Virus record (IMG/VR): IMGVR_UViG_3300037674_001397
Coordinates: 1-29,571 of that record
Length of the DNA: 29,571 bases
Source: a virus
Strand: one strand, 5' to 3'
Shown here piece after piece: positions 1,464 through 16,070 of this stretch (within the stretch, counting starts at the first letter, position 1; each line of letters starts with the position of its first letter). A program made the position numbers and the translations under genes. The notes below the pieces were generated by a model. The model was not told the origin of the DNA. It searched no databases and worked only from the letters and a program-made list of their open reading frames with translations.

Positions 1464-4400
1464 ATGGGTTTAAAAGACATAGATTTAAGGAGAGCTCTAA
1501 AATCATTTCCGTATATTATAGATGGAACGCCTCAACAATTTGAAGCTAATGGAGGTGTTGTCCATGGAAAAATTAAGGGCATACACGGTGGACTTCTACC
1601 TAATAATGATCCGCCTCACCCACAGACGCACACAGCTCTTGATGATGACGTGGGAGCTAAAGGAACTCCACAGTATATAAACGTTAAGGGAGGACCGGCT
1701 GAAACAATTCCTTTTCCGGAAAAATATGATCCAAACGTGGGAGGAATTCACGGTGGAATTGAAGGACCGGCTCCTGCTCAACCACCCCACCAAGAAGATC
1801 ATAGTCATTTAGATGATGCACCATTAAGTGGAGTTAATCCACAAACCTTTGTTTATAATGGTTACACAGTATTGGGTGTTCCGACTCCAATAGAATCAAA
1901 ATTTGTAGATGGAGAGAATGCAGATTGGCCTTCTCAAACTATGATGTCAGGTCAAATAGCAGGAAGAACTGCATCCCAACCGGAAGGTGTCGGTAGTTTG
2001 GGAAATCCTCAAACGTTTACTATAACACATGCAGCCGGTGAAGCTACAATTACTGGATTACAGGGCGAATTTAATATATCAGAATTAGGTTTGTTAGCTG
2101 AAAAAAGTCTTCTTATGAAAACATGGAAAGGTTCTGTAGAATTAGATCTCGAAAATTTTCCAGCTCCAAAATTTTACAATCCGGATGGGTGGAAATCAAG
2201 TGAAACACACGGTACAGATTTTACATGGCCAACATATAGGGGTTTGGGAACTTCTTCTCCTGAAAAAGAAGGTTTTAGATTTGGTGGAGGTCATGCACAA
2301 CAGGGATTTACGGTTAATTTATTTGGAGCAAGAACTATAGACGGTCCTATAGTAGAAGATGTAGTCGATAACTATACACGATTAGTAAAAGAATCCGGAT
2401 TTTGGGGTAACTTTGTTAACAAGCAATCAAGTCTTCAGGAAGATTCAATATACAAACAAGATGTATTTACCACATTTGATGGTATACTTTTTGAAATGGG
2501 ATTTGAACCAGGAACAAGAGCTGTTAGAATTGGAAATACATTTAAACCAAATACAAAGCCAGCATACACTAAAGATGTACCAATTGGTGGTGGAGGTGGA
2601 GTAGGTGGGCCACCAACATTAACTAGTAACAAATATAAAGGTCTTAAGGGTGTAAAATATAATAGCCCAATTGATGTAGAAGCTGGTAAATTTGAAGGTG
2701 ATACGGAATATGATTACGATAGTGTACCAAAACTGTTGTGGTTATACGATAATATGATAGTTGGTGAGGGTAAAGTAAGTCCAGTTGAAGGGTGGCAAAT
2801 TAAAAATGATCTTAATTGGAGACTTCCAGGTTCAAGTGGTACAATAACTGCCGACGCTTTACAAGGTATGAGTAACTCAGCGGCTAGCTCATGGAATAGT
2901 TGGGTAGCAAATGCGATGCAAGGATATGCTTATCCAATAGTTCCATCGATAAATTTAATAAATTCTACTCCAAAGTATGCTACACATACTCAAGCAAGAT
3001 ATTTTACTAAAAAGGGTTTAGAAGACGAAAAAACTGGAACACCAGAAGCAGAATTAACAACTAACGTATTAGAAGAAGCTTCTCAGTTTATAGGGAAAGA
3101 TCAAATAACTAAAGGATTTTTTCAAGATGGTGCGCTTGGTGCGAAAGCTCCTAGAATGGCATTCTTATTAGATGCTATTATTTTTGCTGCTAAAGATTCT
3201 GCTGCTTTTACTGAAGCGTGGATAAAGCACATGGGAAACAATAAAGATGAATTGTCTTATGTTTCTCCTCCAATGTCTACACTAGCAAGTCCTCATGGAA
3301 CCTCAACAATGGGAGTTCCCAATAAGGATTCTCAACCTCACACTTCTGATAGACCATATATTAAAAAATCAGATTGGTCAGATTTTAAAGATGATCAAGA
3401 TAATAAAGCCAATCCATTTTATTTTTACTCAAAAATGGGCGATACTTCAAATGGAATGGGTGTACCAAATGGTGAAGATAAACTACACGACCAATCTGAA
3501 ACTAACTTTTTTGGAACAGACGAAAAAAATAAAATAGTATCCTTAAAAGATCCAATAGGACCACACAGTAAAGGAGGTATGCCAACAATAAAAAGTTATA
3601 TGACTTTAGATGAAAAGGGAGAGACAGAGATAAGTAAAACAATTCCTAAAATAGTTGGAGGAATAGATATACCTGATGAAGAAGGCGGCGATGATGAGAA
3701 GGTTACTTCGATAAATTCAGACAAAATGGGAAGTCAAACAAAAAATACAGTTGGACTTCTTCATAAGTATTCTACTTTGGCTTATCCTGCTTTAGGAGCT
3801 TTCGATGATAAAGATCAAGCAGATGAAGGTGGAGCAAAATCGTTGATGTATTCTGAAACATTGAGATCTCCTTCAGAAATGAATGAAACAATTAAAACTG
3901 AGTTTGGAGGAAAGGGTGCAGAGAGACCACCCTGGTTATCTGCTCTTAGTGGACCAGCAAAGGACGGCGCTAGAGATCTTGGTAAGAAAAAGACATACGC
4001 AATTGGAAGACAGGGAATGATGCCAGTTGGTGTGGATGATGCAGATAAGGTGGTATCTGTTGATGGTAAAGCTAACATTAATAAGGTTGATGGCAAATAT
4101 ATTAATGATTATGTAGATAAAGTTAATGCTATTCCGTACGGTTCTAGAGAATGGGGTCCGGATAAAACTGACGTAGAAGATTTAGATTTTATTCCTTTAA
4201 TTTTTCATGATTTATGGAATAAGAAGGATATAGTTTTTAGAACTATGAATTTAGGAGCTATTACGGATACTGTTACACCAGAATGGACAGAACAGGATTT
4301 TATTGGAAGGAGTGTTCCAGCAGCCACTTACAGTAAAACTGATAGAAAATTTTCTTTTGATTTTGATGTATATCCAAAGACACGACAAGAATTTCCTATA

Positions 4401-13783: not shown

Positions 13784-14254
13784 ATGAATAAAAAACAAAT
13801 ACTTAGAAAAATAATTAGAGAAGAAATTAAGAAAGTTATTACTGAAGGAACTAGAGCACTAGTTGGTGTAGAGGCTCCTAATGGTAAAGTAACTGTTTTC
13901 TATACTCATTATGATGGTTACCCACAACATACTGGAAAAATGCTTAAGAAACATTATAGCAATTCTGGAATTGTTAAAAAACTCATGGCTCTCGGAAAAC
14001 ATGGTGTATCTTTCTTAGATAAGAGTATTAAAGGTGGTCCTGATCATAGCTTTAAAGATCCTAAAAAGGGTGAAACTATTTTCTACGGAAGAGATAGAGG
14101 CGAAAATGACAGAATGACATTCTCTTTTAGAGACAGGGAAAAAGCTGATTTTGATTGGGGTACTGAATATATGTATATTTGGAATATGAAAGAAAAGAAG
14201 TGGTACTATAAATCAGCCCATTCAAATCCACGAGATTGGACAGAGTTGAAATAA
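13784..14254 (+). CDS. Conserved-type phage protein with GYPxHxG motif
   Basis: A 156-residue soluble protein. The first 20 residues (KKQILRKIIREEIKKVI) are a basic amphipathic helix often seen at the N-terminus of small phage proteins. From residue 25 it reads ALVGVEAPNGKV, then HYDGYPQHTGKMLKKHY and KLMALGKHGVSFL; this pattern (a short strand pair, YDGYPxHxG, a helix ending in HY, then L-x-x-L-G) recurs in uncharacterised proteins of T4-like phages, and no function is known to me. The stop codon is followed at once by the TTG of the selenoprotein candidate, so the two are likely co-translated. Confidence 0.6.
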   Translation: MNKKQILRKIIREEIKKVITEGTRALVGVEAPNGKVTVFYTHYDGYPQHTGKMLKKHYSNSGIVKKLMALGKHGVSFLDKSIKGGPDHSFKDPKKGETIFYGRDRGENDRMTFSFRDREKADFDWGTEYMYIWNMKEKKWYYKSAHSNPRDWTELK

Positions 14255-14533
14255 TTGGCTTCTACAACCCAAAACATTAACGTTACACAAAACTCCATAA
14301 TAAAATTTGCAATTGAATATTGTATGCAGTGAAGTTATGAACCAAGAGCTTTCAGTTTGAGAGATGAATTAAGTACAGCATATTCAGAATCAGAAATAGA
14401 AATGATTGAAAGCAGCGGTGGAGTGTACAACGTATACGTTAACAATGATCAGATCTTCGATAAAATAGCATCAGATAGATTTCCAAATGATGGAGAGATT
14501 TTAGCATTAGTCGAACGATTTAATTTTATTTAA
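14255..14533 (+). CDS. Putative SelW/Rdx-like selenoprotein with in-frame TGA (Sec26)
   Basis: Read through the TGA at 14330-14332, this frame encodes 92 residues that match the SelW/SelT/Rdx thioredoxin-like family along their whole length: a strand FAIEYC, the redox motif C23-M-Q-U26, then SYEPRAFSLRDEL, a Gly-Gly strand SSGGVYNVYVNND and a C-terminal FPNDGEILALVERF. The TGA falls exactly where family members have the Sec or Cys of the CxxU/CxxC pair. A SECIS-like hairpin follows it. The start is inferred: TTG at 14255 directly after the previous stop, with only a weak AGAG before it and no in-frame ATG before the Cys; two other genes here seem to start with the same TTG-GCT. Family members are oxidoreductases of uncertain substrate. 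If TGA is a stop, only a 25-residue peptide is made and this is a broken gene. TGA ends two other genes here, so it is not a plain sense codon. Confidence 0.72.
14349..14363 (+). promoter_or_regulatory. Candidate bacterial SECIS hairpin
   Basis: CTTTC at 14349-14353 pairs with GAGAG at 14359-14363 (one G-U pair) around the five-base loop AGTTT. The loop starts 21 bases after the TGA, within the usual bacterial range, and has a G at its second position, as bacterial SECIS loops require. The lower stem is poorly paired, so this is a modest candidate that depends on the CxxU evidence. Confidence 0.4.
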
Positions 14534-14538
14534 AAAAG

Positions 14539-14580
14539 TTATAAAAAAATCACATTTTGAGAATTTTACAGTATATATAT
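14539..14580 (+). promoter_or_regulatory. Promoter before the structured RNA
   Basis: TTATAAAAAAAT begins at 14539, followed by TCACAT at 14550-14555, then TATATA at 14574-14579 (18-base spacer). The whole 45-base block is nearly the same as the block before the SSB gene at 15202, including TTTTGAGA at the same distance. It faces into the non-coding stretch, so it probably drives the RNA described at 14615. Confidence 0.55.
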
Positions 14581-14582
14581 TT

Positions 14583-14613
14583 TATAGAATATATATTATT
14601 CTATATGTTTTTT
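14583..14613 (+). terminator. AT-only hairpin with T-run (terminator or operator)
   Basis: A perfect 9-base inverted repeat, TATAGAATA at 14583-14591 and its complement at 14597-14605, has a five-base loop and is followed by TG and a run of T (14608-14613). As RNA this could end transcription coming from the accessory block, though an A-U stem with one G-C pair per arm is weak. It also overlaps the expected start site of the promoter just upstream, so it could be a protein-binding site instead. Confidence 0.35.
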
Positions 14614-14614
14614 G

Positions 14615-15067
14615 AAAATTTGGAAAATGAAAGTGTGTGAGTTGATCGCTTGCACATGGGATTGACAGAAAAAATCCTTTCCAGAAGAGGGGGTTATTGT
14701 TGAGTAAATTCACCCGTGGTGGGTTCCTAAAGGCCGAAGTGCTGGCTCAAATGTGAGTAATAGGAAAACGACAGTTTAGAATTGAAAGATATGTCATGAA
14801 CTATACGAAAAGAGCTACTTTTCTGCTTCATTCTGAGAGAGTGATAGAAATATCGAGATTCTCAGCCTAGTGTTACCTAAAAACCCGTGAGTGATGGGGA
14901 AGGTGTAATGACAGGAGTTGTGTCCACTCCAGCGAAGTTAACCACTTTAAGGAGTAACCGATCGTAACTGATTGGGTTGTTAGCATGAAGTCAAATAAAA
15001 TCATTCATGACCCGTGACATTTGTAAGTGTATGCAAATCTTACATCCCCAATATATTTTCCAATTTT
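14615..15067 (+). ncRNA. Putative large structured phage RNA (about 450 nt)
   Basis: No open frame of any length fits here, but the strand is full of nested, well-paired helices. The ends pair with each other: 14615-14628 with 15055-15067 (13 pairs and one bulged base). Inside are 14633-14641/14649-14657; 14724-14729/14761-14766, enclosing a CTCA/TGAG hairpin at 14746-14757; 14833-14838/14860-14865, enclosing GATA-GAAA-TATC (a GNRA tetraloop) at 14843-14854; 14914-14918/14926-14930; 14956-14963/14970-14978; 14984-14988/15005-15009; and 15022-15027/15039-15044. GC content is visibly higher than in the flanks. A promoter sits before it and a long hairpin after it. It lacks group I intron, RNase P and tmRNA landmarks. 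Size and setting resemble the large ornate phage RNAs (GOLLD, ROOL), but I cannot match it to either. Confidence 0.6.
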
Positions 15068-15071
15068 ATAG

Positions 15072-15137
15072 AGATTGCCGTACTAGCGTTTTAGTCTCCA
15101 CTATATAATGACTTAAAAACCTTTGCGGCAATCTTTT
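15072..15137 (+). terminator. Long hairpin with T-run after the structured RNA
   Basis: AGATTGCCG at 15072-15080 pairs perfectly with CGGCAATCT at 15126-15134; inside, TTTTAGTC pairs with GACTTAAAA with one bulge. The outer stem runs into TTTT. It may end the structured RNA transcript or be its last domain. The gap to the RNA's closing helix is only four bases. Confidence 0.5.
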
Positions 15138-15201
15138 ATACATGAAAAGCTATTATTTTCCATGAAAAACAGTTACAAGTCAACAACAAATATGAAAAAA
15201 A

Positions 15202-15250
15202 TTATAAAAAAATTAACTTTTGAGATTGTTCAAGAATATATATTTATGTA
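15202..15250 (+). promoter_or_regulatory. Promoter of the SSB gene
   Basis: TTATAAAAAAAT at 15202, TTAACT at 15213-15218, TTTTGAGA directly after it, and TATATA at 15237-15242 (18-base spacer). It is a close copy of the block at 14539. It leaves an untranslated leader of roughly 45 bases before the SSB start. Confidence 0.65.
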
Positions 15251-15293
15251 TTGAACATTAACTATTAACTAATAAAAAATAAGGAGAAATGTT
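15251..15293 (+). promoter_or_regulatory. Unstructured SSB leader with TTAACTA repeat and strong RBS
   Basis: The leader is almost only A and T, with ATTAACT repeated in tandem (about 15258-15271), and ends in AAGGAG at 15281-15286, seven bases before the ATG. In T4 the gp32 protein represses its own translation by binding an unstructured A/U-rich leader; this leader would suit the same control. That is an inference by analogy. Confidence 0.4.
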
Positions 15294-16070
15294 ATGGACA
15301 TTGCCGCAATCAAAGCACGATTAGGCCAACTTCAACAATCAGCAAACAAGACTTCTTCCCTTTGGAAGCCAAGTCCTGGAAAATCTCAAATTCGAATCGT
15401 TCCGAATAAAGCAAATAAGGACAATCCGTTTATTGAGTTGTACTTTCATTATGATATGGGTGATAAATTTTATCTATCACCGATTTCGTTTGGAAGACCT
15501 GATCCAATTGAAGAGTTCGCAATTAAACTTAAAACATCCGGTAACGGGGATGATTACAAATTAGGAAGAAAAATCGAAGCCAAAATGCGTACATACGCCC
15601 CAGTAGTTGTACGTGGTGAAGAGAATGAAGGTGTAAGGTTTTGGGGTTTTGGTAAAATGGTTTACCAAGAACTTTTAAGCATCATTGCTGATCCTGATTA
15701 TGGTGATATTACTGATCCCGTTAATGGTAGAGACGTTGTAGTAGAATTTAAAACCAGTGAAGAAACTGGTCGTTCTTTTCCAACGACAACAATACGTGTT
15801 AAACCGAATCAAACACCGGTTACTGATAATCCAGATGTCATGAAGACAATTAAGGATACTCAGAAGAATATCACGGAAATCTACCAGGAGATGAGTTACG
15901 ATGATCTACATAAAGTACTTTCTGAATGGTTGAATCAAGATGGAGAAGGCGAAGATGATTCAGTTAGCGCTAAAAAAGTAGCGATTCCAGCGAAGTCGAC
16001 GAATGATAAGGTTAAAGAAGCTGCTACCACCGATGTGAGCAGTGCATTTGACGAATTATTCAATAACTAG
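15294..16070 (+). CDS. Single-stranded DNA-binding protein (T4 gp32-like)
   Basis: A 258-residue protein of the gp32 type: coats single-stranded DNA at the fork and in recombination and interacts with polymerase, helicase and recombinase. Seen: a basic N-terminal segment, SLWKPSPGKSQIRIVPNKA at 22-40, PFIELYFHYDMG, then FYLSPISFG with DPIEEFA, RTYAPVVVRGEE, and VYQELLSIIADPDYGDITDP, all in the order of the gp32 core. The C-terminus is acidic and ends in SSAFDELFNN, like the tail used for partner binding. The Cys/His zinc site of T4 gp32 is not seen. It has its own promoter, strong ribosome site and terminator, so it is probably a separate, strongly expressed unit. Confidence 0.9.
   Translation: MDIAAIKARLGQLQQSANKTSSLWKPSPGKSQIRIVPNKANKDNPFIELYFHYDMGDKFYLSPISFGRPDPIEEFAIKLKTSGNGDDYKLGRKIEAKMRTYAPVVVRGEENEGVRFWGFGKMVYQELLSIIADPDYGDITDPVNGRDVVVEFKTSEETGRSFPTTTIRVKPNQTPVTDNPDVMKTIKDTQKNITEIYQEMSYDDLHKVLSEWLNQDGEGEDDSVSAKKVAIPAKSTNDKVKEAATTDVSSAFDELFNN

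Follow-up and report, generated by a model that had tools for sequence, protein, structure and literature searches.

The window analysed here, a 29.6-kb virus record with a T4-like replication module (IMGVR_UViG_3300037674_001397, positions 1 to 29,571), raises the question of what occupies a long gap in which no ORF of at least 60 aa is found on either strand (14254-15294). Downstream of this gap lie genes for a gp32-like single-strand DNA binding protein, a UvsX-like recombinase, an exonuclease and a DnaB-like helicase. A sequence-only reading had proposed a large structured non-coding RNA at 14615-15067, with paired ends and possibly of a new class. Comparison of homologues supports such an RNA, with a conserved, covarying fold and an extent of ~14584-15138 (~550 nt) that exceeds the earlier call. 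The best explanation of the whole, which we consider probable, is a stand-alone, covalently linked pseudo-dimer of the manA RNA (RF01745) that would act in trans. Its parts are listed in Table 1.

Table 1. Parts of the double manA RNA and of its flanks, in coordinates of the window
Feature	Position	Strand	Support
Promoter-like box (GAGAATTTT...TATATATATTTT), immediately 5' of the RNA	14559..14583	+	
5' terminal hairpin ATAGAATA-TATAT-TATTCTAT, probable transcript start	14584..14604	+	many homologues, by eye
Outer closing helix	5' strand 14614..14627; 3' strand 15056..15067	+	partner exchange
Copy A, divergent manA domain: P3A, multibranch with GUGGUG loop, P8 strands, P9A	14630..14864	+	
P1 hairpin (manA 5' hairpin)	14633..14657	+	two-sided change in 7/8 pairs
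P2, manA closing helix: copy A GGGAT with copy B ATCCC	14658..14662 with 15044-15048	+	
P8i: copy-A P8 5' strand with copy-B P8 3' strand	14791..14798 with ~15013-15020	+	
hpA hairpin within copy-A P8	14807..14823	+	individual folds
P8ii: copy-A P8 3' strand GCTTCAT with copy-B P8 5' strand ATGAAGT	14825..14831 with 14985-14991	+	
P9A hairpin, corresponding to GGUA...AAUCC in manA; contains the GAAA loop	14833..14864	+	
Copy B, manA domain	14865..15049	+	RF01745 match
3' hairpin AGATTGCCG...CGGCAATCT, then a short T run; terminator-like	15072..15138	+	
Conserved loop TTTTAGTCTCCAC of the 3' hairpin	15089-15101	+	
Second promoter-like box, 5' of gp32	15222..15247	+	
gp32-like single-strand DNA binding protein, usual 3' neighbour of the RNA	15294..16070	+	PHROG 1192 and 224

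Folding of the window sequence alone gave a z-score of merely -1.63, with 7 of 100 shuffles folding equally well, and single-sequence folding is therefore no proof of a structured RNA; the proof is supplied by comparison. Iterative nhmmer searches of 80 IMG/VR gp32 loci recovered a ~420-nt element on the same strand in 27 of them, some clipped by contig ends. A scan of viral contigs with an internal motif returned at least 119 stretches, with the RNA in 106 among the matches listed, whereas 118 stretches picked by this motif in bacterial and archaeal genomes all lack the RNA and were reused as negative controls. An RNAalifold consensus of 18 sequences has 93 pairs, 71 of them with two-sided changes. 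The main alignment (A2) comprises 35 representatives of less than 87% identity picked from 80 distinct full-length copies. Its consensus has 106 pairs with 94.8% of cells paired, versus 37-46% in controls with slid partners; because the structure was derived from the same alignment, this control favours the observed structure on paired cells, and more weight attaches to the counts of two-sided change. Two-sided changes were found in 73 pairs and 651 cells (at most 105 cells in the slid controls), and none of 500 shuffles matched the observed values.

The closing helix that had been proposed to join the ends is real and conserved, with slightly shifted boundaries. It was overlooked by the alignment and is supported via partner exchange: across 80 sequences the strands pair with their own partners at a mean of -9.65 kcal/mol, versus -7.48 (sd 0.22) with exchanged partners, and 0 of 200 exchanges reach the value for own partners. 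Within the fold, P2 is paired in 100% of cells, yet shows two-sided change in just two of its five pairs. The hairpin hpA formed in 34 of 35 individual folds as judged by eye (the exception being L084) and is missing from the RNAalifold consensus because of gap placement; the helix placed there instead (helix 11, GAUU/AAUC) was rejected, as it shows no two-sided change and the individual folds favour hpA. The GNRA hairpin of the sequence-only reading does exist as a GAAA hairpin at 14843-14854. By eye, a GAAA loop recurs at the P9A position in only 3 of 35 copies (the window, L127 and L051) and is thus no feature of the family. A loop-loop contact between GUGGUG of copy A and UAACCA of copy B, noticed by eye, is plausible and was dropped, as it does not covary.

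To which family does this RNA belong? At curated Rfam thresholds the window yields two tRNAs and nothing else. A permissive Rfam scan of 14480-15320 gave a single match, manA, at 14875-15043 (40.4 bits, E 7.8e-9), which accounts for the 3' part of the region and leaves 14607-14870 unassigned; a whole-record search with RF01745 gave 14833-15048 (40.9 bits, E 4.4e-11). Both scores lie below the curated cut-off of 55.2, and a default cmscan misses this manA because the window copy is divergent; we regard it as a divergent manA relative on the strength of its sibling records, not of its own score. At the gathering threshold, 7 of 20 loci matched manA in the 3' half. A survey with RF01745 covered 50 records, 49 viral and one Proteus genome as a control, and found the 3' match in all 49 viral records, above the cut-off in 31. 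Neither an RNase P RNA nor a self-splicing intron was found in the window by Rfam, nor a tmRNA by Rfam and ARAGORN.

manA is a riboswitch candidate that dates from 2010 and is still unexplained. In marine sequences and in cyanophages it was described as part of the 5' UTRs of metabolic genes, and it was also reported in gamma-proteobacteria (PMC2864571, in part). Its Rfam structure was corrected in release 14.3 (PMC7779021, in part), it serves as an example in PMC7657543 (in part), and the manA of phage S-CREM1 is listed in PMC9964418 (in part). An RF01745 search of 394 genomes of the Proteus order gave no match under strict filters and with no positive control, and is therefore silent on the gamma-proteobacterial manA. 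The double RNA resembles manA (Weinberg 2010) in that both halves match, the helix order is the same and the carriers are marine T4-like phages. Unlike the known manA phages, the lineage of the double form has no close cultured member in our phage collection. The nearest relatives of the window gp32 in that collection are from Microcystis phage Mel-JY01 (47.5%) and Flavobacterium Immutovirus phages (38.9%), so that no isolate in it is a close relative of the lineage; DNA searches of cultured phages with the window or L037 as query returned short chance matches or none. The lineage that carries the double manA is one of uncultured T4-like phages and differs from the known manA phages.

Is the RNA transcribed on its own, or as part of a gp32 message? 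The motif TATATATW occurs within 120 nt upstream of the RNA in 72 of 78 distinct homologues versus 42 of 1560 random windows, and the box together with TATATAT in 67 of 78 versus 17 of 1560, which bears out, as a promoter-like box, the promoter that had been suspected to face the RNA. Inverted repeats at the place of the 5' hairpin differ in sequence among many homologues (by eye). The long hairpin noted earlier behind the RNA is likewise present and has a terminator-like counterpart in 52 of 78 loci (9 of 390 shuffled); in the window itself, the short T run makes the hairpin fail the terminator test.

The strongest rival is a tandem, riboswitch-like leader that regulates gp32 in cis, in which a pair of manA aptamers and the terminator behind them would govern read-through into the gene. 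It would agree with the classification of RF01745 as Cis-reg in Rfam and with its description as a riboswitch candidate (PMC2864571, in part), and the terminator-like hairpin does lie between the RNA and gp32. Of 145 loci with the RNA, some of which share a contig, 122 have gp32 on the same strand 3' of it, mostly at a spacing of 160-200 nt. An ORF begins within 150 nt of one-domain manA in 82 of 95 copies, the manA of P-SSM2 lying 15 nt upstream of purL, and the single form may accordingly have a cis role. However, gp32 has a box of its own after the hairpin: a TATA-like box within 130 nt was found in 26 of 27 gp32 loci with the RNA and is kept in 32 of 39 loci without it (61 of 1600 control windows). 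The RNA itself is lacking at 53 of the 80 gp32 loci, 39 of which extend at least 700 nt upstream; together with the 27 carriers this makes 66 testable loci, 39 of them without the RNA. It also adjoins unrelated genes. About half of the 23 loci without a downstream gp32 are clipped by contig ends, and the remainder have other neighbours, such as an Hsp20-like ORF (L097) or an SbcC-like gene 5' of the RNA (L132, L162, L185), both named from sequence appearance and not by a family search. Finally, one-domain copies lie flush with tRNAs: the annotated manA of S-CREM1 fills the space between tRNA-Leu and tRNA-Asn, and that of S-SSM7 ends flush with tRNA-Gly. The gp32 loci without the RNA, the separate gp32 box, the other neighbours and the flush tRNAs together favour a free RNA, and we regard the leader as unlikely. 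Promoters just 5' of one-domain manA (77 of 96 by a loose and 16 of 96 by a strict definition; 45 and 5 of 1920 in the control) would fit a leader or a free RNA alike and were therefore counted for neither. Judging from these loci, which argue for manA as an autonomous transcript, the double manA is likely to be transcribed on its own.

Several further observations concern the surroundings. A tRNA lies within 600 nt of the double RNA at seven loci, four of which (L154, L159, L338 and L341) apparently represent one virus, and within 100 nt of one-domain manA in 8 of 104 full-length viral copies. A single cluster of S-CREM1 (OP535465 9745-10643; L330) alternates tRNAs with wcaG, manA and abiF RNAs, a setting into which the label of cis-regulatory leader for wcaG and manA fits badly. 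Annotated hypothetical protein genes overlap manA on the same strand in P-SSM4 (164884-165057) and S-SSM7 (151441-151572), and these ORFs are probably spurious. At L132, L162 and L185, ~670-690 nt follow the RNA before the next sizeable ORF on the same strand, with an additional 73-aa ORF 305 nt after the RNA in L185; this long stretch is possibly a further non-coding RNA. The loop motif TTTTAGTHTCCAC of the 3' hairpin has 108 matches in 211 viral loci, 103 of them within 160 nt 3' of the RNA, and none in 118 control loci; it is almost confined to this element. At the other five (L004, L005, L006, L013, L053) the hairpin and an upstream box precede gp32 without a double manA, and since the hairpin is solitary there, it may be a separate small RNA. 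Between the RNA and the terminator-like hairpin, L161 carries an extra structured-looking element (~1525-1600) that has no match in Rfam; a similar element is seen in L111, L115, L163, L169 and L174, and GGAAAGTATCC...CCCTAACTTTCC occurs in most of the six.

The identity of the 5' half is less apparent from the window. On its own, this half scores 11.3 bits (E 1.1) against RF01745, which is not significant. One might therefore suppose that manA comprises the 3' half only and that an unrelated domain was inserted beside it. However, the RF01745 survey found a second match on the 5' half in 17 of the 49 viral records, with 13.9 to 44.7 bits, a best E of 6.5e-13 and matches spanning model positions 1-192; the Proteus control has no match. 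Whole-record searches gave two matches each in G004, G007 and G008. In our reading, the 5' copy stays hidden in the Rfam scan because the tool retains the better of overlapping matches. The 5' half of L119 alone, compared with all 4227 Rfam families, matched manA and no other family (44.7 bits, E 1.3e-10). The link to the window is provided by a copy-A model, R1, built from 31 of the 35 representatives with the window, L051, L127 and L154 excluded, against which the window 5' half scores 69.4 bits. R1 retains a pairing of GGGAUUG with CGAUUCU that RNAalifold proposed for copy A alone and that we held to be an artefact of cutting the domain at P2. In the reverse direction, a search of 294 kb with R1 recovered S-SSM7 manA in register (24.9 bits, E 7.5e-5; next match 13.3 bits), and with filters off S-CREM1 reached 14.3, P-SSM2 10.9 and P-SSM4 2.7 bits, where noise extends to 13.0. 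The reverse test is thus clear for one of four cyanophage manA RNAs, and its weakness in the other three is the second point in favour of an unrelated domain. Against it, the elements GAAUAA...UAA, GUGGUG loop and GGUA...AAUCC also follow one another in copy A as they do in manA. By these matches and motifs, manA is present twice, as the 3' half and, in divergent form, as the 5' half, and we consider an unrelated 5' domain very improbable.

Least probable of all is the ornate RNA class unrelated to manA that the sequence-only reading had envisaged: the RNA has no Rfam match at default thresholds, and its size and tRNA-linked setting resemble ROOL and GOLLD (PMC12286853, in part), but manA matches on both halves, above the curated cut-off for the 3' half in 31 of 49 siblings, and the manA order of helices and motifs identify it as a tandem of two manA domains. 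From the earlier comparison with GOLLD and ROOL, the setting stands, a phage RNA sometimes found beside tRNAs, while the likeness does not extend to their Rfam models, which gave no match to the RNA at gathering and permissive thresholds.

How are the two copies combined? The helices P1, P2, P3, multibranch, P8 and P9 and the motifs follow in manA order and are present twice, apart from P1 and P2, which the copies have in common; by eye, the copy junction lacks the inner P2 strands (A3' and B5'). Known manA RNAs have one domain of ~190 nt with an internal P8, whereas in the double RNA the P8 strands are exchanged. Our one-domain set of 105 RNAs (103 distinct viral copies from a GGGAGTGACTGAATAA scan plus P-SSM4 and P-SSM2) closes P8 inside the domain in every case, with a mean of -7.60 versus -3.17 for exchanged partners (0 of 200). 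For the tandem form, the P8 strands were assigned by their place between multibranch, hpA and P9 and by the Rfam alignments of copy A and copy B, which put these strands on P8 with the pairs marked as non-standard. The 5' strand of copy A pairs with the 3' strand of copy B (P8i) in 35 of 35 copies, at a mean of -8.94 versus -3.57 exchanged (0 of 200), and six of its eight pairs show two-sided change. The 5' strand of copy B pairs with the 3' strand of copy A (P8ii), again in 35 of 35 (-7.90 versus -4.49 exchanged; 0 of 200). Within-copy pairing passed in one of 35 copies for A5'/A3' and in none for B5'/B3', with means the same as those of shuffles. Topologically the tandem pairing is nested and thus ordinary secondary structure; the swap lies in which copy gives each strand. 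Because P8 forms between the copies and not within them, we file the RNA as a manA variant and not as an ordinary member. The swapped helices break the intradomain pairs of the curated manA model, which for this reason detects half the molecule, and a curated RNA model may thus see half of what is there. We consider it very likely that the RNA consists of two manA domains with swapped strands.

How might such a molecule work? We propose one stand-alone RNA of ~550 nt, in which a 5' hairpin, copies A and B in a single fold and a terminator-like hairpin follow one another. P2 is built from the 5' strand of copy A and the 3' strand of copy B, and the P8 strands are exchanged, an anatomy that corresponds to a strand-exchanged dimer with its chains fused. 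The RNA would have a transcript of its own, driven by a promoter similar to the gp32 one. It may act in trans, serving a protein or another partner as a structured scaffold with two equivalent manA faces. On the sequence evidence, we lean slightly towards such action in trans. Judging from the cross-paired double copy, pairs may be the form in which manA RNAs work, and those with a single domain may fill the same role as homodimers. By analogy, a dimeric state of the one-domain RNAs is conceivable, and we put it forward tentatively. The wider proposition, that manA RNAs are trans-acting phage RNAs and not riboswitches, with a strand-exchanged dimer as working form that is here one covalent molecule, is equally speculative. 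The covariation of the duplicated form shows which strands are exchanged and makes a direct prediction, namely dimerisation through P8. If confirmed, the molecule would be a clear example from nature of a non-coding RNA in which duplication has led to domain swapping and, if true, the RNA equivalent of a domain-swapped protein dimer fused into one chain.

Tandem riboswitches, for example the tandem glycine aptamers, also contain the same RNA domain twice in succession. Unlike these, the double manA has exchanged helices and no fixed regulated gene. The available text of a review on tandem riboswitches (PMC9481103) mentions neither manA nor the word 'swap', and that of PMC7266159 does not mention manA. 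GOLLD and ROOL are likewise large phage RNAs, often near tRNAs, and homo-oligomeric; their oligomeric structures have been reported together with that of OLE (PMC12286853, in part). The double manA differs from GOLLD and ROOL in that its two units are covalently joined. An abundant non-coding transcript of ~800 bases has been described in phage ICP1 (PMC7567579, in part). No report of a tandem manA was found among titles and passages of the openly accessible literature on RF01745/manA. The RNA belongs to an established class; its architecture, a double manA whose P8 strands are exchanged, appears to be new. One viral contig, L421, carries two separate one-domain manA copies (125-312 and 3650-3834) ~3.3 kb apart, and such copies are possible raw material for tandem forms.
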